From positions 1-64,000 of the forward strand of contig JACCQO010000001.1 in assembly GCA_015709205.1 (NCBI GenBank): a stretch of 64,000 nucleotides of DNA, read 5' to 3'. This DNA is from Desulfovibrionaceae bacterium (GTDB lineage: Bacteria; Desulfobacterota; Desulfovibrionia; Desulfovibrionales; Desulfovibrionaceae). The position numbers were made by a program, and so were the translations under genes. Positions within the stretch are counted from its first letter, which is position 1; each line of letters begins with the position of its first letter. Under the pieces are notes generated by a model, which had not been told where the DNA came from, searched no databases, and saw only the letters and a program-made list of their open reading frames with translations. Shown here in pieces: positions 41,009-54,601 of the stretch.

Positions 41009-41881
<873 letters not shown>

Positions 41882-41926
41882 CCCCGGCCCCGTTCCACCC
41901 ACCACGAACCCAACGGAGAAGAAGCA

Positions 41927-42280
41927 ATGATGATCATGGTGAGAGCTATTGTGCGGCCCGAGAAAGCGGATGACGTCCTGGCCGCCCTCATGGACGCCGG
42001 TTTCCCGGCCGTGACCAAGTACTCGGTGGCCGGGCGCGGCAAGCAGCGCGGCATCAAGATCGGCGAGGTGACCTACGACGAGATCCCCAAGACCATGCTC
42101 ATCTGCGTGGTCCAGGACACGGACAAGGACTTCGTGATCGAGACGATCATGACCGCGGCGCGTTCCGGCAAGAAGGGCGCCTTCGGCGACGGCAAGATCT
42201 TCGTCAGCCCCGTCGAGGACGTCTACACCATCAGTTCCGGCGTGCGCGACACGGCTCCGGCCGAGGGGGTGCCCGCATGA
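41927..42280 (+). CDS. nifI1: NifI1, PII-family nitrogenase regulator
   Basis: A 117-residue PII-like protein encoded between nifH and nifD. With NifI2 it blocks nitrogenase activity when ammonium appears, relieved by 2-oxoglutarate, as shown in methanogens. The signature GRGKQRGIKIGEV and the ATG-adjacent MVRAIVRPEKADDVL fit the family. Two ATGs at 41927 and 41930 are equally plausible behind GGAGAAG. It overlaps nifI2 by four bases. Confidence 0.96.
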   Translation: MMIMVRAIVRPEKADDVLAALMDAGFPAVTKYSVAGRGKQRGIKIGEVTYDEIPKTMLICVVQDTDKDFVIETIMTAARSGKKGAFGDGKIFVSPVEDVYTISSGVRDTAPAEGVPA

Positions 42281-42651
42281 AGGAGATCGTCGCCGTCGTG
42301 CGCATGAACATGATGAACCGCACCAAACAGGCCCTGACCGACGCGGGCGTGGACGCCTTCTTCGCCCACGAATGCTCGGGCCGGGGCAAGGGGCTCGTCA
42401 ACGAGAAGCTCCTCGAGGGTGCGGGCAAGGGCTACGCCGAGGCCGTGGAGATGCTCGGCGAGAAGGGGCGGCTGTACCCCAAGCGCATGATCACCGTGGT
42501 CGTTCCCAGCGAAGACGTGGACGACGTGGTCGCGGCGATCATCGAGGCCAACCAGACGGGCAAGCCCGGCGACGGGAAGATCTTCGTCATGCCCGTGAGC
42601 AACGCCGTCCGCGTCCGCACCGGCGAGGTCGGCGAGGCATCCATCAGCTGA
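42277..42651 (+). CDS. nifI2: NifI2, PII-family nitrogenase regulator
   Basis: A 124-residue partner of NifI1. It has the conserved MKEIVAVVRMNMMNRTK start, GRGKGLV in the T-loop region and VVPSEDVDDVVAAIIEANQTG. The two form a hetero-oligomer that binds NifDK and prevents Fe-protein docking. The ATGA overlap with nifI1 indicates coupled synthesis in equal amounts. Confidence 0.96.
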   Translation: MKEIVAVVRMNMMNRTKQALTDAGVDAFFAHECSGRGKGLVNEKLLEGAGKGYAEAVEMLGEKGRLYPKRMITVVVPSEDVDDVVAAIIEANQTGKPGDGKIFVMPVSNAVRVRTGEVGEASIS

Positions 42652-42683
42652 CCCGCAGCAAAACGCCAGAAGAGGAAATCAGT

Positions 42684-44306
42684 ATGCCGACCAAGAAAAA
42701 GAGCGCCATGTGGGACGCGGCCGCCATCAAGGAGGAGCTGCTCAAGAAGTATCCTCCCAAGGTCGCCCGCAAACGCGCCAAGCAGATCGTCGTCAACGAG
42801 GACAACCAGGAGATCATGGCCAACGTCCGGACCATTCCGGGCATCATCACCATGCGCGGCTGCACCTACGCGGGCTGCAAGGGCGTCATTCTCGGGCCCA
42901 CGCGCGACATCGTGAACATCACCCACGGCCCCATCGGCTGCGGCTTCTACTCGTGGCTGACACGCCGCAACCAGACCGAAACCACCGAAGAGAACCCCGA
43001 CAACTACATGCCCTACTGTTTCTCCACGGACATGCAGGACAAGGACATCATCTTCGGCGGCGAGAAGAAGCTGGAGGCCGCCATCCGCGAGGCCCACGCC
43101 ATCTTCAACCCCAAGGCCATCGCCATCTTCGCCACCTGCCCCGTGGGCCTGATCGGCGACGACATCCACGCCGTGGCCGCCCGGCTGAAGGCCGAACTCG
43201 GCTGCAACATCTTCGCCTTCTCCTGCGAGGGCTACAAGGGCGTCAGCCAGTCCGCCGGCCACCACATCGCCAACAACCAGATCTTCAAGCACGTGGTGGG
43301 CGAGAACGACGAGGTCAAGCCGGGCGAATACAAGATCAACATGCTCGGCGAGTACAACATCGGCGGCGACGCCTTCGAACTGGACCGCATCTTCAAGAAG
43401 TGCGGCATCACGTGCCTGGCCACCTTCAGCGGCAACTCCACCTACGACCAGTTCGCCTCCTCGCACACCGCGGACCTGAACTGCGTCATGTGCCACCGCT
43501 CCATCAACTACGTGGCCGACATGCTCGAAACCAAGTTCGGCATCCCCTGGATCAAGGTCAACTTCATCGGGGCCGAGGCCACGGCCAAGTCCCTGCGGCG
43601 CATCGCCGCCTATTTCGGCGACAAGAAGCTCATCGACCGCGTCGAGGAGGTCATCGCCGAGGAGATGCCCGCGGTGAAGGCCGCGCAGGAGGAAGTGCTG
43701 CCCAAGACCACGGGCAAGACGGCCATGCTCTTCGTGGGCGGCTCCCGCGCCCACCACTACCAGGAGCTCTTCGCCGAGATGGGCATGCGCACCCTGGCCG
43801 CGGGCTACGAGTTCGCCCACCGCGACGACTACGAAGGCCGCCAGGTGATTCCGGACCTCAAGGTGGACGCGGACAGCCGCAACATCGAGGAGCTGGAGAT
43901 CGAGAAGGACGAGGCCCGCTACAAGGCGCGCATCACCGACGTGGAGCGCGCCAAGCTCGAGGCCGCGGGCGTCCCGTTCAAGGACTACAAGGGCATGATG
44001 CCCGAAATGGACAAGCAGTCCCTGGTCATCGACGACCTCAACCAGTACGAGGCCGACAAGCTCGTGGAGATCCTCAAGCCCGACGTCTTCTGCGCGGGCA
44101 TCAAGGAAAAGTACTCCATCCAGAAGCTGGGCGTGCCCATGAAGCAGCTGCACAGCTACGACTACGGCGGACCCTACGCAGGGTTCAAGGGCGCCATCAA
44201 CTTCTACCACGAGATCGAACGGCTGGTGACGTCCAAGGTCTGGGGCTACATGAAGGCTCCCTGGCAGAAGAATCCCGAGCTTTCGGCCACCTACGTGTGG
44301 GAATAA
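42684..44306 (+). CDS. nifD: Nitrogenase molybdenum-iron protein alpha chain NifD
   Basis: A 540-residue catalytic subunit carrying FeMo-cofactor. P-cluster ligands are C60, C86 and C152. The cofactor ligands are C270 (in NCVMCHRS) and H490 (in QLHSYDYGGPYAGF). A ~50-residue insert around 385-440 makes it longer than the Azotobacter protein and is typical of the group II/III nitrogenases of anaerobes. GAGGAAATC precedes the ATG at 42684. Upstream in-frame codons overlap nifI2 and are not used. Confidence 0.98.
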   Translation: MPTKKKSAMWDAAAIKEELLKKYPPKVARKRAKQIVVNEDNQEIMANVRTIPGIITMRGCTYAGCKGVILGPTRDIVNITHGPIGCGFYSWLTRRNQTETTEENPDNYMPYCFSTDMQDKDIIFGGEKKLEAAIREAHAIFNPKAIAIFATCPVGLIGDDIHAVAARLKAELGCNIFAFSCEGYKGVSQSAGHHIANNQIFKHVVGENDEVKPGEYKINMLGEYNIGGDAFELDRIFKKCGITCLATFSGNSTYDQFASSHTADLNCVMCHRSINYVADMLETKFGIPWIKVNFIGAEATAKSLRRIAAYFGDKKLIDRVEEVIAEEMPAVKAAQEEVLPKTTGKTAMLFVGGSRAHHYQELFAEMGMRTLAAGYEFAHRDDYEGRQVIPDLKVDADSRNIEELEIEKDEARYKARITDVERAKLEAAGVPFKDYKGMMPEMDKQSLVIDDLNQYEADKLVEILKPDVFCAGIKEKYSIQKLGVPMKQLHSYDYGGPYAGFKGAINFYHEIERLVTSKVWGYMKAPWQKNPELSATYVWE

Positions 44307-44330: not shown

Positions 44331-45707
44331 ATGCTGCTCAGACATACCCCAAAAGAGATCAAGGAGCGCAGCGCCCTGGTCATCAACCCCGCCAAGACCT
44401 GCCAGCCCATCGGCGCCATGTACGCGGCCCTGGGCATCCACGGCTGCATGCCGCACAGTCACGGCTCCCAGGGTTGCTGCGCCTACCACCGCTCCACGCT
44501 GACCCGGCACTACAAGGAGCCCGTGCCCGGCACGACCAGCTCCTTCACCGAGGGCGCGTCGGTGTTCGGCGGCCAGGCCAACCTGCTGCAGGCCATCGAC
44601 AACATCTTCACGGTCTACGAGCCCGAGGTCGTGGCCGTGCACACCACCTGCCTGTCCGAGACCATCGGCGACGACCTGCCCCAGATCCGGGACAAGGCCT
44701 TCAAGGAGGGCAAGGTCCCCGCGGGCAAGGAGATCATCTACGCCTCCACGCCCTCCTACGTGGGCTCGCACATCACCGGCTTCTCGAACATGGTCAAGGG
44801 CATGGTCTCCTGCCTGTGCGAGGCCACGGGCAAGAAGAACGGCAAGGTGAACGTCCTCCCCGGCTGGGTGGAGCCCTCGGACATGACCGAGATCAAGCGC
44901 ATCGCGGCCATGATCGGCGTGGACATCACCATGTTCCCGGACACCTCGGGCGTGCTCAACGGCCCGCTCACGGGCAAGCACAGGACCTTTGCCGAGGGCG
45001 GGACCAAGATCGCCGACATCCGCAAGGCCGGCGACGCCATCGGCACCCTGGCCCTGGGCGAATGGGCCTCGGCCGACGGCGCGCGCACCCTGGACTCCCA
45101 GTGCAAGGTGCCCTGCCGCATCCTGGACCTGCCCATCGGCCTGTCGGCCACGGACCGCTTCGTGGACGCCCTGCGCATCGTGGGCGGCACCTCGGTGCCC
45201 GCCGAACTGGAGCTCGAACGCGGCCAGCTCGTGGACGTGATCTCCGACATGCACCAGTACTTCTACGGCAAGAAGGTGGCCCTGGTCGGCGACCCCGACC
45301 AGCTCATCTCCCTGACCGAGTTCCTGGTCAACCTGGACATGCAGCCCGTCTACGTGGTCACCGGCACGCCCGGCAAGCGCTTCGAGCGCCGCATCAAGGA
45401 GCTCACGGCCGACGCGGGCTTCGAGGTCAAGGTCAAGGCCGCGGGCGACATGTTCCTGCTCCACCAGTGGATCAAGAACGGCCCCGTGGATTTGATCATC
45501 GGCAACACCTACTGCAAGTACATCGCCCGGGACGAGGACATCCCCCTGGTGCGCCACGGCTTCCCCATCCTGGACCGCGTGGGACACCAGTACTTCCCGA
45601 CCACGGGCTACACGGGCGCCATCCGCCTGCTGGAAAAGATGCTCGACGCGTTCCTGGACCGCAAGGACCGCGACACGCCCGAGAAGCACTTCGAGCTGGT
45701 CTACTAG
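44331..45707 (+). CDS. nifK: Nitrogenase molybdenum-iron protein beta chain NifK
   Basis: A 458-residue subunit. It lacks the ~50-residue N-terminal extension of Azotobacter NifK, again as in anaerobe-type enzymes. P-cluster ligands are C24 (NPAKTCQPIGA), C49 (HGSQGCC) and C107 (HTTCLSETIGDD). AAGGAGAGCGAC precedes the ATG. A strong hairpin (45729-45756) follows the stop. Confidence 0.98.
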   Translation: MLLRHTPKEIKERSALVINPAKTCQPIGAMYAALGIHGCMPHSHGSQGCCAYHRSTLTRHYKEPVPGTTSSFTEGASVFGGQANLLQAIDNIFTVYEPEVVAVHTTCLSETIGDDLPQIRDKAFKEGKVPAGKEIIYASTPSYVGSHITGFSNMVKGMVSCLCEATGKKNGKVNVLPGWVEPSDMTEIKRIAAMIGVDITMFPDTSGVLNGPLTGKHRTFAEGGTKIADIRKAGDAIGTLALGEWASADGARTLDSQCKVPCRILDLPIGLSATDRFVDALRIVGGTSVPAELELERGQLVDVISDMHQYFYGKKVALVGDPDQLISLTEFLVNLDMQPVYVVTGTPGKRFERRIKELTADAGFEVKVKAAGDMFLLHQWIKNGPVDLIIGNTYCKYIARDEDIPLVRHGFPILDRVGHQYFPTTGYTGAIRLLEKMLDAFLDRKDRDTPEKHFELVY

Positions 45708-45791: not shown

Positions 45792-47069
45792 ATGAGCTCC
45801 AAGCCCGTCAACACCGCCGCCGGAACGGCCGCCGCAACCGCCACCCCGTGCGTTCGCCCCCACGTCCGGCTGGACCTGCCCGTGGCGCCCCGGCGCAACG
45901 CCATGGGGGCCTTCGAGACCGTTCCGGCCACCGCCGAACTGCCCGCCATCTCCCCGGCCGACGCCCTGGCCCTGCTCGATGCGGCCCTGGACGCCTCCCT
46001 GGACGTGACCACGATCAAGATTTCCGGTCCCGGCGACCCGCTGGCCGAGCCCGCGCCCATGCTGGACACCCTGCGCGCCGTGCGCGCCGCCCATCCGGAC
46101 ATGGCCCTCCAGCTCGTGACCAACGGGCTGCACGTGGCCCTGTTCGCCGACGACCTGGCCGCCCTGGACGTGGCCCACGTGACCCTGCTCGTGGACGCCG
46201 TGGACGCGGCCCTGGCCGAGCGGCTCTACGCCTGGGTGCGCCCGGGCCGCAAGACCCTGCCCCGGGCCGAGGCCGCGGCCCTGCTCGTGGAGCAGCAGGC
46301 CGAGGCCATGCGCGCGCTGGCCGCGCGGTCCGTCCCCGTGACCGTGCGCACCACCCTGCACGGCGACGTGAACGCCGCCCACGCCCCCGAGGTGGCCCGC
46401 GTCATGGCCGGGCTCGGGGCCGCGAACATGCGCATCGTGCGCGCCACGCCCGGCACGGACAGCCGCGACGACGCGCCCGCGCCCGTGTCCAAGGCCGACT
46501 ACGACGCGATCAAGGCCGAGGCCGCCCGGCACCTGCCCCTGGTGGAGGACGCGGACTGTCCCACCCGCACCGGGAACGCCCGGACTCCCTGCCTGGACCT
46601 TGCCGACCTGCCCGAAGGCCGCGAGCTGCTCGCGCGCGCGGGCCGTCCCACGGCCTTCTCCACGCCCACGGGCGAGCGGCCCTACGTGGCCGTGGCCAGC
46701 GAGAGCGGCATGGAGGTGGACGCGCACCTGGGCCACGCCCTGCGCTTCCTGATCTACGGCAAGGGCGTGAAAACCAGCCAGGAGGGCATGGTCGGCCTGC
46801 TGGAGATGCGCACCGCGCCCGCGCCGGGTTCCGGCGATGCGCGCTGGCAGGAGCTGGCCGAAACGCTTTCGGACTGCTGCGTGGTGCTCTGCGCCGGCGC
46901 GGGCGAGCGGCCGCGCGAGATCCTGGGCCGGACCGGCCTGCGCGTGGTCGTGACCCAGGGCGACGTGGAAGGCGTGGTCGAGGCCCTGTACGGCGGCGGC
47001 AAGAAGCCCGGCAAGGGTCGGGGCAAGGGGTCGGCGCCCCTTGCCGACGGCGGCAACTGCTCGGCGTAA
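45792..47069 (+). CDS. NifB-like pseudoenzyme: radical-SAM-fold remnant without cysteines plus NifX-like domain
   Basis: A 425-residue protein that aligns along its length with the true NifB at 50888-52156. LPVAPRRNAMGAF (29-41) replaces LPVAPKCNIQCNYC, so the three cluster cysteines become R35, G39 and E42. The SAM-binding SGPGDPLA (78-85) is kept, as is the order NG-L, H-VTLLVDAVD and V-VRTTL. The other NifB cluster ligands (the HPC start, the YDC cysteine, C110, CKRC) are absent. From ~295 a NifX/NafY-like domain follows (RPYVAVASESGMEVDAHLGHAL), then a glycine/lysine-rich tail. I infer a non-catalytic cofactor carrier or scaffold. Function is unproven. Confidence 0.8.
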   Translation: MSSKPVNTAAGTAAATATPCVRPHVRLDLPVAPRRNAMGAFETVPATAELPAISPADALALLDAALDASLDVTTIKISGPGDPLAEPAPMLDTLRAVRAAHPDMALQLVTNGLHVALFADDLAALDVAHVTLLVDAVDAALAERLYAWVRPGRKTLPRAEAAALLVEQQAEAMRALAARSVPVTVRTTLHGDVNAAHAPEVARVMAGLGAANMRIVRATPGTDSRDDAPAPVSKADYDAIKAEAARHLPLVEDADCPTRTGNARTPCLDLADLPEGRELLARAGRPTAFSTPTGERPYVAVASESGMEVDAHLGHALRFLIYGKGVKTSQEGMVGLLEMRTAPAPGSGDARWQELAETLSDCCVVLCAGAGERPREILGRTGLRVVVTQGDVEGVVEALYGGGKKPGKGRGKGSAPLADGGNCSA

Positions 47070-47475: not shown

Positions 47476-47491
47476 GCAAACGGACCACACA

Positions 47492-48028
47492 ATGAACGCC
47501 ACGACCACCGCACCGGCCTTCGCCGCCACCGCCCCGGACCACGGCTGGACCCTCCGGCCCGCCACGCGCGCGGACATGGATGCCATGGTCCGCCTGCTCG
47601 GCGTGCTCTTCGGCATCGAGGCCGACTTCACGCCCAACGTGGCGGCCCAGCGCGCCGGGCTGGCCCTGATGCTCGCCGCGCCCGCCACGCGTTGCGTGCT
47701 CGTGGCCGAGCTGGACGGCGCGGTGGTCGGCATGGGCACCCTGCAGATGGTCGTGTCCACGGCCGAGGGCGCGCCCTCCGGGCTCATCGAGGACGTGGTC
47801 GTGGACGAGACCGCGCGCGGCCTGGGCATCGGCCGGGCCCTGGTGGACGGGCTGCGCCGCCGCGCCGCCGAGCGCGGGGCCACGCGCGTGCAGCTCCTGG
47901 CCGACGCGGACAACGGTCCGGCCCTGGCCTTCTACGAACACATCGAATTTTCGCGCACCGGCCTCGTCTGCCTGCGCGCGCACCTGAACAGCACCCCCGG
48001 CGTCCGGACGACGGCGCCATCGGAGTAA
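47492..48028 (+). CDS. GNAT-family N-acetyltransferase in the nif operon
   Basis: A 178-residue acetyltransferase. Motif A is IEDVVVDETARGLGIGRALVDGL (about 112-134), with the acetyl-CoA loop RGLGIG, and the C-terminal AFYEHIEFSRTG matches motif B. It lies four bases ahead of nifE, so it is made only with the nitrogenase genes. Its substrate is unknown. A role in modifying a Nif protein is possible but not shown. Confidence 0.88.
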   Translation: MNATTTAPAFAATAPDHGWTLRPATRADMDAMVRLLGVLFGIEADFTPNVAAQRAGLALMLAAPATRCVLVAELDGAVVGMGTLQMVVSTAEGAPSGLIEDVVVDETARGLGIGRALVDGLRRRAAERGATRVQLLADADNGPALAFYEHIEFSRTGLVCLRAHLNSTPGVRTTAPSE

Positions 48029-48031
48029 GCC

Positions 48032-49498
48032 ATGGCCGAAACCTCTCCCCTGACCGTATTCGAGGAACGCCAGGACCAGATCCACTGCACGGGCGACGGG
48101 CCCTTCGAAATGGCCTGCAACCGCGACTCCCTGGCCGGAGCCGTGAGCCAGCGCGCCTGCGTGTTCTGCGGCTCGCGCGTGGTGCTCTACCCCATCGCCG
48201 ACGCCCTGCACCTGGTGCACGGGCCCATCGGCTGCGCGGCCTACACCTGGGACATCCGCGGCTCGCTCTCCTCCGGGCCCGAGCTGCACCGCCTCTCCTT
48301 TTCCACGGACCTGCGCGAGCGGGACGTGATCTTCGGCGGCGAGAAGAAGCTCGCGGCCGCCCTGGACGAACTCATCGACCGCCACCACCCCAACGCGGCC
48401 TTCGTCTACTCCACCTGCATCGTGGGCATCATCGGCGACGACCTCGAGGCCGTGTGCCGGACCATGACGGAAAAGAAGGGCATCCCGGTCATCCCGGTGC
48501 TCAGCGAAGGGTTCAAGGGCAACAAGCGCGCCGGCTACCTGGCCGCGTGCAAGGCCATGAACCGCCTGGTGGGCACGGGCGACGTCACGGACATCTCGCC
48601 GGTCTCCGTGAACATCCTCGGCGACTTCAACCTGGCCGGTGAAATCTGGATCATCCGCAACTATTTCGAGCGCATGGGCGTGCAGGTCGTGGCCAACATC
48701 ACGGGCGACGGCCGCGTGGCCGACATCCGCCGGGCCCACGGCGCGGCGCTCAACGTGGTGCAGTGTTCCGGCGCGACCCTCGACCTGGCCAAGATGATGC
48801 GCGAGGAGCATGGCGTGCCTTTCGTGCGCGCGGCCTACCTGGGCATCGAGGACATGGCCGACTCGCTCTACCGCATCGCCGACTTCTTCAAGGGCATCGA
48901 CCCCGGCATCGTGGACCGCACCCGCGCCCTGGTGCGCGAAGAGGTCTCCGCCCTGCTGCCCAGGCTCGCGGAAATGCGCCGCGACCTGGAGGGCAAGAAG
49001 GCCGCCATCTACGTGGGCGGCGCGTTCAAGGCCTTCTCCCTGATCAAGGCCTTCCGCCACCTGGGCATGACCGTGGCCGTGGTCGGCTCCCAGACCGGCA
49101 CCGAGGAGGACTACGCCGAGCTGGCCCAGGTCACGGACCCGGGCACGATCATCATCGACGACGCCAACCCCCTGGAGCTCTCCCGCTTCGTCAAGGAGAA
49201 GGACGTGGACGTGTTCGTGGGCGGGGTCAAGGAACGGCCCATCGCCTACAAGCTCGGCGTGGGCTTCTGCGACCACAACCACGAGCGCAAGATCGCCCTG
49301 GAGGGCTTCGAGGGCATGTACAACTTCGCGCGCGAGGTCCACGCCTCGGCCATGAGCCCGGTGTGGCGCTTCGTGCCCCGGCGCGAGGCGCAGAACAGGG
49401 CCGCCGCCAAGGGCGGAACCGCCCCGGCGGACGCCGGGAGCGACGCTCCGGCGCCGGGCGAAGCCAACATCCCGAACGACAAGGAGGCCGTGGCATGA
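48032..49498 (+). CDS. nifE: FeMo-cofactor scaffold subunit NifE
   Basis: A 488-residue homologue of NifD that with NifN receives NifB-co and finishes it with molybdenum and homocitrate. Conserved cysteines are in RACVFCG (43-46), HGPIGCAAY (C68) and STCIVGIIGDD (C129). The cofactor-region cysteine is present in NVVQCSGA. The last ~45 residues are alanine- and proline-rich and not conserved. The end overlaps nifN by ATGA. Confidence 0.96.
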   Translation: MAETSPLTVFEERQDQIHCTGDGPFEMACNRDSLAGAVSQRACVFCGSRVVLYPIADALHLVHGPIGCAAYTWDIRGSLSSGPELHRLSFSTDLRERDVIFGGEKKLAAALDELIDRHHPNAAFVYSTCIVGIIGDDLEAVCRTMTEKKGIPVIPVLSEGFKGNKRAGYLAACKAMNRLVGTGDVTDISPVSVNILGDFNLAGEIWIIRNYFERMGVQVVANITGDGRVADIRRAHGAALNVVQCSGATLDLAKMMREEHGVPFVRAAYLGIEDMADSLYRIADFFKGIDPGIVDRTRALVREEVSALLPRLAEMRRDLEGKKAAIYVGGAFKAFSLIKAFRHLGMTVAVVGSQTGTEEDYAELAQVTDPGTIIIDDANPLELSRFVKEKDVDVFVGGVKERPIAYKLGVGFCDHNHERKIALEGFEGMYNFAREVHASAMSPVWRFVPRREAQNRAAAKGGTAPADAGSDAPAPGEANIPNDKEAVA

Positions 49499-50853
49499 AG
49501 ACCAAAGAGAGCTTCGTCTCCACCACCAACGCCTGCAAGCTCTGCAAACCCCTGGGCGCGACCCTGGCCTTCAAGGGCGTGGAGGGCTGCGTGCCCTTCC
49601 TGCACGGCTCCCAGGGCTGCGCCACCTACATGCGGCGCTACATCATCAGCCACTTCCGCGAGCCCATGGACATCGCCTCCTCGTCCCTGGGCGAAAAGAA
49701 CGCCATCTACGGCGGCGGCCCCAATCTGAAAAAGGGCCTCCTCAACGTGATGCAGAAGTACGGGGCCAAGGTGGTCGGCGTGGCCTCCACCTGCCTGACC
49801 GAGACCATCGGCGACGACATGCCCATGATCATCGCCGAGTTCCGCAGGGAATTCGGCGACCTGGACCTGCCGGAGATCGTCCAGGTCTCCACGCCCAGCT
49901 ACGAGGGCACGCACACCGAGGGCTTTCACGCCGCGGTGCGCGCCATGGCCGACCAGCTCGTCACGGACAAGGTCGAGCCGCACGGCGGCGTGAACGTCAT
50001 GCCCGGGCTGGCCAGCGCCGAGGACCAGCGCCACCTGGCCGAGCTCGTGCGCCTGTTCGGGGCCGAACCCACCCTGCTGCCGGACACCTCCGACACTTTG
50101 GACGGCCCGGCGCTCATGGAATACGAGCGCATCCCCTCGGGCGGCACGCCGCTTTCCGCCATCCGGGCCATGTCCGGCGCGCGCGGCACCGTGGAGCTGG
50201 GCCGCACGCTCAAGGGCATGCGCACCGGCGGCGACGGGCTGGCCCAGCGCTTCGACGTGCCGCTCTTCAAGATCGGCACGCCCGTGGGGCTGCGCGAGAC
50301 CGACGGGCTGTGCGCGGCGCTGGAGGCGATCACCGGCGCGCCCATGCCCAAGGCGCTGCTCAAGGAGCGCGGACGGCTGGTGGACGCCCTGGTGGACGGC
50401 CACAAGTACGTGTTCGGCAAGCGCGTGGTGGTCTACGGCGAACCGGACCTGGCCATCGGCCTGACCGCGTTTCTGGCCGAGATGGGCGCGCAGCCCGTGC
50501 TCGTGGCCACGGGCGCGGAAAAGTGCGGCCTGGCGGGCCACGTGGCCGAGGCCTGCGGCGACCTGCTGCGCGAGCGGCCCGAGATCTGCGAGGGCGTGGA
50601 CTTCCACGAGATCGCGGAAAAGGCCGAAGCCATGGGGCCGGAGCTGCTCGTGGGCAACTCCAAGGGCTACCCCTCGGCGCGCAAGTGGAACATCCCGCTG
50701 ATCCGCACGGGCTTCCCGATCCACGACCGCTTCGGCGGCCAGCGCATCCTGCACATGGGCTACAAGGGCGCGCTCGGGCTCTACGACGCCGTCGTCAACG
50801 CCGTTCTGGAAAAGAAGCAGTCGGACAGCCCCGTGGGCTACGGCTATCTCTAG
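49495..50853 (+). CDS. nifN: FeMo-cofactor scaffold subunit NifN
   Basis: A 452-residue NifK homologue and partner of NifE. It has NACKLCKPLGA near residues 12-22, HGSQGCATYMRRY near 38-50 and STCLTETIGDD near 98-108. It starts at the ATGA overlap with nifE. Upstream in-frame codons lie inside nifE and are ignored. AAGGAGGCC precedes it. It ends 34 bases before nifB. Confidence 0.96.
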   Translation: MKTKESFVSTTNACKLCKPLGATLAFKGVEGCVPFLHGSQGCATYMRRYIISHFREPMDIASSSLGEKNAIYGGGPNLKKGLLNVMQKYGAKVVGVASTCLTETIGDDMPMIIAEFRREFGDLDLPEIVQVSTPSYEGTHTEGFHAAVRAMADQLVTDKVEPHGGVNVMPGLASAEDQRHLAELVRLFGAEPTLLPDTSDTLDGPALMEYERIPSGGTPLSAIRAMSGARGTVELGRTLKGMRTGGDGLAQRFDVPLFKIGTPVGLRETDGLCAALEAITGAPMPKALLKERGRLVDALVDGHKYVFGKRVVVYGEPDLAIGLTAFLAEMGAQPVLVATGAEKCGLAGHVAEACGDLLRERPEICEGVDFHEIAEKAEAMGPELLVGNSKGYPSARKWNIPLIRTGFPIHDRFGGQRILHMGYKGALGLYDAVVNAVLEKKQSDSPVGYGYL

Positions 50854-50887: not shown

Positions 50888-52156
50888 ATGACCACCGACC
50901 GTTCCAAGCACCCCTGTTTCAACAAGTCCGCCGCCGGAGACTGCGGTCGCGTGCACCTGCCCGTGGCCCCCAAGTGCAACATCCAGTGCAACTACTGCAA
51001 CCGCCGCTACGACTGCGTCAACGAGTCGCGCCCCGGCGTGACCAGCGCGGTGCTCAACCCCGAGCAGGCCGTGGAGTACATGGACAAGGTCCTGGAGGCC
51101 GAGCCGCGCATCACCGTGGCGGGCATCGCCGGCCCCGGCGACCCCATGGCCAACGCCGCCGAGACCCTGCGCACCATGCGCCTGATCCGCGAGAAGCATC
51201 CCGAACTGCTCTTCTGCCTGTCCTCCAACGGCCTGGCCCTGCCCGAGCACGTGGACGAGATCGCCGCGGTGGGCGTGAGCCACGTGACCGTGACCATGAA
51301 CTTCGTGGACCCGGCCATCGGCGAGAAGATCTATTCCTTCGTGCGCGACGGCAAGGTGGTCTACCGCGGCCGCCAGGCCGCCGAGCTGCTGCTCTCCCGC
51401 CAGCGCGAGGCCATCCGCCTGCTCAAGGAGAAGGGCATCCTGGTCAAGGTCAACACCATCGTCATTCCCGGGATCAACGAGGAACACGTGCTGGAGGTGG
51501 CGCGCGAGGCCCGCAGGCTGGGCGCGGACATCCAGAACCTGATCCCGATCAAGCCCACCGAGGGCACGCCCTTCGGCGACCTGGACGAGCCCGCCCCCGG
51601 GCGGATCAAGGAGCTGCGCGCCGCGGCGGGCGTGGACATCGACCAGATGACCCACTGCAAGCGCTGCCGCGCCGACGCCGTGGGGCTGCTCTCCAACGAC
51701 CTGTCCGGCGGCGCGCTGGGCGGCTGCCTGCGCGCCTGCGCGGCCAAGAAGGTGGAACCCGCCCGGCGGCCCTACGTGGCCGTGGCCAGCCGCGAGGGGC
51801 TGCTCGTGAACCAGCATCTGGGCGAGGCCCAGACCCTGCAGATCTGGGAGCAGGCCGGCGACTCCTTCCGCCTGGTCGAGGAGCGCGAGACCCCGAACCG
51901 GGGCTCGGGCCCCAAGCGCTGGCTGGAACTGGCCAAGACCCTGGACGACTGCCGCGCCGTGCTTTCCGCGGCCGTGGGCGAGACGCCCACGCAGATCCTG
52001 CGCGAGCACGGCACCGAGCCCTACGCCGTGTCCGGGCTCATCGAGGCCGCCCTGGCCGCGGTCTACGGCTCGGGCGACGTGAACGTGCTGCGCGCGCGAC
52101 GCGCGGGCGCATGCGGGGGCAGCGCGTGCAGCGGCGGCGGCGGCGGTTGCGGCTAG
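50888..52156 (+). CDS. nifB: NifB, radical-SAM enzyme making NifB-co, with NifX-like domain
   Basis: A 422-residue enzyme that fuses two [4Fe-4S] clusters and inserts carbide to give NifB-co. Radical-SAM cysteines are C30, C34 and C37, followed by the YDC cysteine C43, GPGDP (82-86), C110 and the CKRC pair near residues 259-262. H8 in KHPCFN matches the known N-terminal ligand region. From ~295 a NifX-type domain follows (RPYVAVASREGLLVNQHLGEA), and the tail is Gly/Cys-rich (CGGSACSGG). It is the last gene of the nif operon. Confidence 0.97.
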   Translation: MTTDRSKHPCFNKSAAGDCGRVHLPVAPKCNIQCNYCNRRYDCVNESRPGVTSAVLNPEQAVEYMDKVLEAEPRITVAGIAGPGDPMANAAETLRTMRLIREKHPELLFCLSSNGLALPEHVDEIAAVGVSHVTVTMNFVDPAIGEKIYSFVRDGKVVYRGRQAAELLLSRQREAIRLLKEKGILVKVNTIVIPGINEEHVLEVAREARRLGADIQNLIPIKPTEGTPFGDLDEPAPGRIKELRAAAGVDIDQMTHCKRCRADAVGLLSNDLSGGALGGCLRACAAKKVEPARRPYVAVASREGLLVNQHLGEAQTLQIWEQAGDSFRLVEERETPNRGSGPKRWLELAKTLDDCRAVLSAAVGETPTQILREHGTEPYAVSGLIEAALAAVYGSGDVNVLRARRAGACGGSACSGGGGGCG

Positions 52157-52402: not shown

Positions 52403-54010
<1,608 letters not shown>

Positions 54011-54302
54011 GAGCCCGTCCAAAGCAAGGACCATACCGGATTGCGAGGTTTCTTCAACACGCCGGAATCGTATCCCATTCCGGATCCGGGAACGACGATC
54101 CGCCATTTTTGTTGGCAAATTCGTCATTATTTTTTGCAAATTTGAAAACAACACCCGGAAGAAACGGGATCGAAAGACGAACAACGGCGACACTGGCTTG
54201 ACAAAAGGCGACAAACGCGGCGCGCGGCGCAGGAACGTCGGCCCACCCCGGGCGAACGGACGCGGACGCGACGGGCGAACGGACGCGAGGACCGGGCCCG
54301 GC
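54011..54302. promoter_or_regulatory. AT-rich promoter region of nifA
   Basis: This is a marked AT island (54100-54160) in GC-rich DNA. On the minus strand TTGTTT and TAATGA are 16 bases apart, a weak sigma-70-type pair. No sigma-54 element was found here. There is no gene in the gap. Confidence 0.4.
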
Positions 54303-54548
54303 CTACGTGCTGCGCAGCAGGTCCCACCACAGGCGGAATTCGCGGACCTCTTCCGCGGCTTCCTCGGTCTGGCATTCCACGAGCATGGCGCGCACGCCGT
54401 CCTCGAATTCCGCGTCCGTGAAGGACAGATCGGCCTCGGCGAGCAGCGCGAGCCGGGCCTCCTGGTCCGCGGCGCGCGCCAGGGCGCGCCGGAACCCGGC
54501 GTCGGTGGAAATACGCCGGGCCAGGCGGCGCACGTTGGTCATGGGCAT
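54303..54548 (-). CDS. Nif11-domain small protein
   Basis: An 81-residue protein matching the Nif11 pattern: a helical start ([20 protein letters not shown]), [25 protein letters not shown] in the middle and a charged C-terminus ending LWWDLLRST. Nif11 proteins occur in nif clusters with unknown role. The same fold forms leader peptides of some RiPPs, but no modification enzyme or core peptide is seen here. The ATG at 54548 has GGGGAGACC ahead. It lies upstream of nifA and has its own sigma-54-like promoter. Confidence 0.75.
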
Positions 54549-54585
54549 GGCGGTCTCCCCGTGTCGGACGCCCGGGGCGCGATAG

Positions 54586-54601
54586 TGCAAAAGAAGCGCC
54601 G
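54586..54601 (-). promoter_or_regulatory. Sigma-54-like promoter of the Nif11 gene
   Basis: On the minus strand CGGCGCTTCTTTTGCA has GG and GC exactly ten bases apart, with TTTGCA matching the -12 element. The -24 part deviates (CGGCGC for TGGCAC). Transcription would begin near 54575, about 27 bases before the start codon. Confidence 0.6.

Follow-up and report, generated by a model that had tools for sequence, protein, structure and literature searches.

A conserved NifB paralogue without the radical-SAM cysteines between nifK and a ferredoxin gene, a predicted carrier of NifB-co

The gene between nifK and a ferredoxin gene in the nif operon of a Desulfovibrionaceae bacterium, here called the slot gene, belongs to a conserved family of NifB paralogues that are SAM-dead as judged from sequence and are most likely carriers of the precursor NifB-co. 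The copy in the window (the whole stretch of 64,000 nucleotides that was analysed) ranks with the more eroded proteins of the family, from which more can be learned than from this one gene.

The slot gene and its protein in the window

The gene order in the window is nifH-nifI1-nifI2-nifD-nifK-slot gene-ferredoxin-GNAT gene-nifE-nifN-nifB, in which the nif names were given by reading of the open reading frames and from the matches between them. The features are as follows.

41051..44306, + strand: nifH, nifI1, nifI2, and nifD
44331..45707, + strand: nifK, upstream neighbour of the slot gene
45792..47069, + strand: slot gene, predicted SAM-dead NifB paralogue (ATG start, 425 aa, AAGGA upstream)
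45849..46646, + strand: NifB-like domain (degenerate radical-SAM fold), residues 20-285 of the slot protein
45849..45851, + strand: codon of C20, which lines up with the HPC cysteine (C29 of Methanotrix NifB), a K-cluster ligand
46026..46040, + strand: GPGDP of the slot protein, residues 79-83
46557..46559, + strand: codon of C256, at the K2-region cysteine position of relatives in the slot-only alignment
46668..47003, + strand: NifX-type domain (PF02579), residues 293-404 of the slot protein
46725..46727, + strand: codon of H312 in VDAHLGHA, aligned with NifX H35 (NifB-co ligand according to the accessible part of PMC13128457)
47130..47438, + strand: [2Fe-2S] ferredoxin gene, downstream neighbour of the slot gene (scores with the NCBIfam 2Fe-2S ferredoxin models fall short of their cut-offs)
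48032..49498, + strand: nifE
49495..50853, + strand: nifN
50888..52156, + strand: true nifB, all ligands present

The GNAT-family acetyltransferase gene (47486-48028, + strand) lies between the ferredoxin gene and nifE in the nif operon, and a similar gene occupies this place in several relatives. On the - strand, 54303-54587 codes for a small protein with a Nif11 domain (PF07862, 31.1 bits), and the gene near it at 52403-54214 is nifA-like by eye only.

The slot protein was identical to the true NifB of the window at 137 of 398 positions (34%; BLASTP, E 7e-57), which is far beyond chance and bears out an earlier note in which the gene was described as a full-length NifB homologue. Against the NifB equivalog model TIGR01290 it scored 147.9 bits, below the cut-off of 343.65, compared with 401.6 bits for the true NifB. 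The same note had reported R, G, and E in place of the three cluster cysteines, and the alignment agreed, with R35, G39, and E42 at the positions of NifB C30, C34, and C37, so the CxxxCxxC motif is gone. GPGDP and the NifX-like tail (PF02579, 42.5 bits, cut-off 26.3) were retained, as had been claimed. PF02579 was the only domain that Pfam found in the window slot protein, and the radical-SAM family PF04055 gave no match in it down to E 0.1; four relatives without the radical-SAM (RS) motif (L053, L058, L033, and L001) passed PF04055 weakly, with 31-38 bits against 29.5. Searches of Pfam, NCBIfam, and the PDB returned no nearer kin than NifB, NifX, and NafY. An AlphaFold2 model of the slot protein, built from three input sequences including the window NifB, was of modest quality (mean pLDDT 60, pTM 0.51). 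Foldseek ranks 1-5 for this model were NifB structures (E 3.1e-14 to 4.6e-12, the window NifB having been part of the model input), with NifX at rank 35, the NafY core at rank 50, and an E of 1.7e-5 for 9ian_F. The predicted structure has the NifB fold.

Ligand names follow Methanotrix NifB as numbered in the accessible part of PMC9692996. In the window slot protein, the C62/E65 loop is deleted, H42 is replaced by D28, and C128 by Q, and to this extent the other cluster ligands are lost, as the earlier note had stated. The statement did not hold for the C29 equivalent (C20), nor for the probable C276 equivalent (C256), which is kept only in the slot-only alignment and was scored as lost in the joint alignment with NifB. 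The window slot protein keeps these two of the four tested K-site ligands. Radical-SAM chemistry and NifB-co synthesis are predicted to be absent from the slot protein.

Conservation, selection, and history of the slot family

Homologue searches gave matches in 51 of 100 relatives and 209 of 289 family members, and a NifX-only profile matched in 128 of 298 order members; the true NifB and the paralogue are mixed in all of these tallies. At least 75 distinct full-length proteins, the window protein included, were encoded with nifK upstream and the ferredoxin gene downstream. They represent part of the matching loci, with identical cores counted once, open frames only, and truncated copies at contig ends (L181, L183, and L188) left out. 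The 75 came from 16 genera of the window's family and from one public MAG record (L001), which was also the one locus found when genome contigs were scanned with the window slot protein; two genera, g5 and g8, supplied 41 of them. Matches at E 1e-90 or better turned up in 59 of 395 genomes of the phylum, and 13 of the 20 phylum regions fetched, in five other families, showed the order nifK-paralogue-ferredoxin without the RS motif. Eleven NifX-only proteins, all in one genus of another family, occupy the nifK-ferredoxin position. In several genera, and on a Nitratidesulfovibrio vulgaris plasmid, the ferredoxin gene follows nifK with nothing between. The CxxxCxxC motif was complete in 4 of the 75 slot proteins, from two genera, and incomplete in 71.

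Selection was assessed by Nei-Gojobori estimates of omega and dN for 18 within-genus slot pairs, none with the window copy, and 19 NifB pairs; pairs share members, and the NifB pairs numbered at most three per genus, with dS saturated in two and the self-pair L093 removed. For the NifB-like domain of the 18 slot pairs omega ranged from 0.07 to 0.64, and for the NifX domain from 0.04 to 0.38, indicating purifying selection among these relatives. In 15 of the 18 the NifX domain had the lower dN of the two domains, the three exceptions all belonging to genus g39. The reverse was found for NifB, with dN higher in the NifX domain in 15 of the 19 pairs and an omega of 1.06 in the NifX domain of the pair L087/L158. 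The window slot protein was more similar in its NifX domain than in its NifB-like domain to each of 16 clade members.

These results bear on the possibility that the slot gene is a decaying duplicate without function. The window copy, with its long branch (1.05) and the loss of two of four K ligands, could be taken in this sense, as could the repeated ligand changes and the empty positions in some relatives. However, omega stayed below 1 in all 18 pairs of relatives (the window copy has no close relative), and the 75 frames are open at one and the same place in 16 genera of the family and one record outside it, a count from which broken copies could be missed because only open frames were collected. 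Together with the incomplete motif and the same gene order in five other families, this agrees with the earlier view of a conserved pseudoenzyme, and we regard decay as highly improbable.

The rooted tree contained 36 paralogues; two NifN-B type proteins, together with NifB from Rahnella and from Sinorhizobium, served as the outgroup, and the bootstrap was not fully settled. The 36 paralogues formed one clade apart from NifB (100/99), in which the genera that bear the RS motif split off before all others (these others 99/94), and this tree implies one loss of the RS motif and seven changes of H42 together with C128. Two further careful trees, from thinned sets with 40 and 47 paralogues, also recovered one clade. 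Independent duplications are disfavoured by the support for a single clade in the three careful thinned-set trees (100/99 or 100/100). The slot clade sits beside the NifB proteins of the phylum (those 90/76). Families are mixed within the main clade, and thus some horizontal transfer is likely.

The NifX-only proteins fell inside the slot clade, with SH-aLRT values of 99 for grouping with slot proteins and 91 with the main clade, in a quick tree of 123 columns that carried a long-branch warning. The same grouping disfavours their being an unrelated NifX recruited to this place. In the accepted view, the NifX domain of NifB was added by fusion (PMC3733012, accessible part). Here a NifX-like protein seems, from the tree, to have arisen from NifB by domain loss, opposite to the accepted fusion.

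Cluster ligands, the NifX-type domain, and the predicted role

The 50 NifB proteins adjoining nifN that served as the comparison set, the window's included, all keep every ligand checked. Leaving out ten proteins, those of clades II and III, from the 75 gives the main clade of slot proteins (n = 65). Of these, 30 were placed in it by the tree of 40 paralogues and a few more by that of 47, and the rest were assigned by exclusion. Within the main clade, the counts of proteins that retain a ligand are 0, 1, and 0 for the three RS cysteines, 0 for C62, 1 for E65, 61 for C29, 53 for H42, 49 for C128, 56 for C276, and 2 for C273. The C-terminal cysteines of NifB are not kept. C29, H42, C128, and C276 occur together without the RS motif in 45 proteins, 39 from g5 and g8 and the other 6 from five genera; the proteins of L053 and L058 are examples. 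The fused [8Fe-8S] K cluster of Methanothermobacter NifB has C18, H31, C115, C260, and C263 as ligands (PMC9692996, accessible part), and therefore these 45 proteins hold equivalents of four of the five. Over 78 NifB-invariant domain positions, genus-weighted retention had a mean of 0.50 and a median of 0.54; C29 ranked 15 (0.95), C276 31 (0.68), H42 35 (0.65), and C128 36 (0.65), and the RS cysteines ranked 64, 77, and 78. The RS site is thus lost to an extreme degree; the K site is truly retained in several genera, but over the whole set its retention does not stand out. The K site is also lost in clade II and others, besides the window copy. Outside the order, six proteins of family f21 keep H42, C128, and a K2-region cysteine, with the first cysteine about 2 residues off C29, and the other seven paralogues keep neither H42 nor C128.

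Two genera have RS-bearing proteins at the nifK-ferredoxin position. Those of g16 (L017/L031) keep the RS motif, C62, H42, and both K2 cysteines, without C29 and C128, and resemble a SAM plus K2 module without K1; those of g11 (L050/L051) keep the RS motif and C62, without K ligands.

A retained K site could mean that the protein feeds or stores clusters upstream of NifB, its C29/H42/C128/C276 site holding a [4Fe-4S] or [8Fe-8S] cluster and loading NifB. The 45 proteins with all four ligands fit such a role, as do the K-cluster ligands of Methanothermobacter NifB (accessible part of PMC9692996) and a K1-only NifB that holds a cluster (PMC6053413). However, two genera account for 39 of the 45, the site is lost in the window copy, clade II, and others, and conservation is stronger in the NifX domain; feeding or storage is in our judgement unlikely.

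The loss of the cysteines with retention of GPGDP, which the earlier note proposed to look for in relatives, is shared: beside the incomplete CxxxCxxC in 71 of 75, the two GPGDP glycines are near-invariant, in 65 and 64 of the 65 main-clade proteins. This could suggest a SAM sensor or SAM-gated regulator acting through GPGDP. On the other hand, GPGDP may be structural, the SAM-anchoring cluster is without its ligands, the NifB-like domain is dispensable in one genus, and the asparagine of SSNG, which we presume to lie near SAM in the radical-SAM NifB-type fold, is kept in only 21 of the 65. Control through SAM is extremely improbable.

The NifX-type domain contains an invariant histidine, present in 75 of 75 slot proteins and 13 of 13 paralogues outside the order. 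In a PDB alignment of the NifX-only profile with 9ian_E it falls on H35 of NifX, a ligand of NifB-co in the structure of NifEN with NifX (PMC13128457, accessible part). Its context is VN.HLGE in NifB (N in 50 of 50, E in 49 of 50), VD.HLG[H/Q] in slot proteins (D in 70 and H or Q in 71 of 75), and VDQHFG in NifX. The isolated tail of the window slot protein scored 21.7 bits against the NifX model TIGR02663, short of the cut-off of 112. The C-terminal tail is short and basic, with a charge of +3 or more in 70 of 75 slot proteins versus 29 of 50 NifB tails; since NifX docks through its C-terminal helix, on a patch of positive charge on NifE (accessible part of PMC13128457), docking of the slot proteins would have to differ.

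No gene exceeded the TIGR02663 cut-off in 30 genomes, a result of unproven sensitivity because 0 of 14 control genomes passed too, and the 13 weaker NifX matches listed in the 30 genomes all lay within NifB or slot proteins. A stand-alone NifX elsewhere was thus set aside for the 30 genomes, yet PF02579 genes do occur apart from the slot. Three clustered ones over the cut-off are found in the own genome, away from the window nif genes (G000:C34:38030-42416), and a small PF02579-type protein directly follows nifB in family f69 (L239:817-1143 and L240:2357-2695), in whose genomes the paralogue occurs too. The idea that a NifN-B fusion stands in for the slot protein was dropped, since two distant nif sets (G056 and G040) were the only ones in which such fusions occurred. 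The nif sets of g20 and g41 (L048 and L049) encode NifN-B fusion proteins, with no paralogue in the stretch seen.

The place after nifK raises the possibility of a partner of apo-NifDK or NifB, either a NafY/NifY-like chaperone or an allosteric pseudoenzyme. The gene directly follows nifK in the 75 loci, which were chosen by that position, and in 13 further ones, the NafY core was matched by Foldseek and by profile, and the slot protein is a SAM-dead homologue of a would-be partner enzyme. PF02579 is, however, the only Pfam domain in the window protein, and we hold this role to be rather unlikely.

Our preferred reading has slightly better than even chances: the slot gene is a former NifB, now SAM-dead, whose protein is predicted to hold NifB-co and hand it over. 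The NifX domain would bind NifB-co via H312, as NifX does via H35, and in members that keep the K ligands the K pocket may dock a 4Fe or 8Fe cluster. The protein would pass NifB-co from NifB to NifEN, replacing a stand-alone NifX; in the window protein, with the K pocket mostly gone, the work would rest on the NifX domain. This carrier role is suggested because the RS motif is complete in only 4 of 75 proteins while four K ligands persist in 45 of 65, because the invariant histidine falls on NifX H35 in a NifX-like VD.H.G context, and because the NifX domain is the better kept one by dN, the reverse of NifB pairs. It also draws on the single clade with a single RS loss, on the NifX-only proteins of one genus grouping inside that clade, on the lack of a gene over the NifX cut-off in 30 genomes (with control sensitivity unproven), and on the laboratory NifB that holds a K1 cluster without its SAM and K2 cysteines (PMC6053413). 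Against a carrier role, the tail is a poor NifX with a basic C-terminus, retention of H42, C128, and C276 (0.65-0.68) is above average but not outstanding, with H42 and C128 changed seven times, and some relatives have an empty position. In addition, were the NifX domain alone important, more lineages should have shed the NifB-like domain. NifX itself is not essential in Azotobacter vinelandii according to the accessible part of PMC13128457, and thus a mild phenotype of the slot gene is possible. The earlier note had offered carrier, scaffold, or SAM sensing; carrier or scaffold fits best, and the SSNG asparagine and the genus without the whole domain speak against SAM sensing.

Beyond this, we tentatively propose, at chances well short of even, a two-site cofactor chaperone, combining an emptied K pocket with the NifX histidine, that arose from a duplicated radical-SAM maturase after loss of the SAM cluster. 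RS-bearing paralogue, SAM-dead NifB, and bare NifX domain would form a living series, and NifX-type carriers would arise by erosion of NifB. Our estimate is held down because H42, C128, and C276 are retained only modestly above other NifB-invariant positions.

Relation to known systems

Two questions of current interest in nitrogenase assembly are the path of NifB-co from NifB to NifEN and what the NifB pocket can hold when there is no SAM chemistry. The slot protein, a natural NifB without a SAM site, could serve as a carrier part or to trap K-cluster or NifB-co states, and its family points to a way in which a radical-SAM enzyme could become a NifX-like chaperone. A NifB survey removed 28% of its sequences, most without CxxxCxxC, as NifX, and full-length SAM-dead NifB is not set apart in its accessible part (PMC5715403). 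A Pseudodesulfovibrio genome has nifB_1 and nifB_2 in its nif cluster (PMC11505543, accessible part), one of which we infer to be the slot gene. The slot proteins are thus a group possibly filtered out as NifX in the former source and seemingly listed as a second nifB in the latter, as far as the accessible parts of both go. No other account of the slot protein was found in the literature searched, which was mostly without subscription journals.

Compared with two-domain bacterial NifB (TIGR01290), the slot protein shares fold, length, GPGDP, the NifX-like tail, about a third of its residues, and the HPC cysteine (61 of 65), but it is without the RS cysteines, the C62/E65 loop, and the C-terminal cysteines, falls below the family cut-off, and is encoded between nifK and the ferredoxin gene. 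With NifX of A. vinelandii (TIGR02663) and VnfX, it shares the PF02579 fold and the NifB-co histidine in a VD.H.G context; unlike them, it is NifB-derived, still has a NifB-like domain, lies below the NifX cut-off, and has a basic C-terminus. With NafY and NifY, it has in common the PF02579 domain and a gene near nifK (nifY presumably follows nifK in A. vinelandii), while the window protein has no further Pfam domain beside PF02579. Slot proteins keep the NifB-co histidine, which NifY does not have according to the accessible part of PMC13128457. NCBIfam TIGR04347, a pseudo-SAM/SPASM protein, is alike by name only and belongs to a different family and context. The closest laboratory parallel is the K1-only variant of MaNifB, which still holds its K1 cluster after removal of the SAM and K2 cysteines (PMC6053413): the slot proteins are likewise without SAM-module and K2 cysteines and have K1 ligands, but they are natural, carry a NifX domain, and have no equivalent of MaNifB C63, and the window copy is also without H42 and C128.
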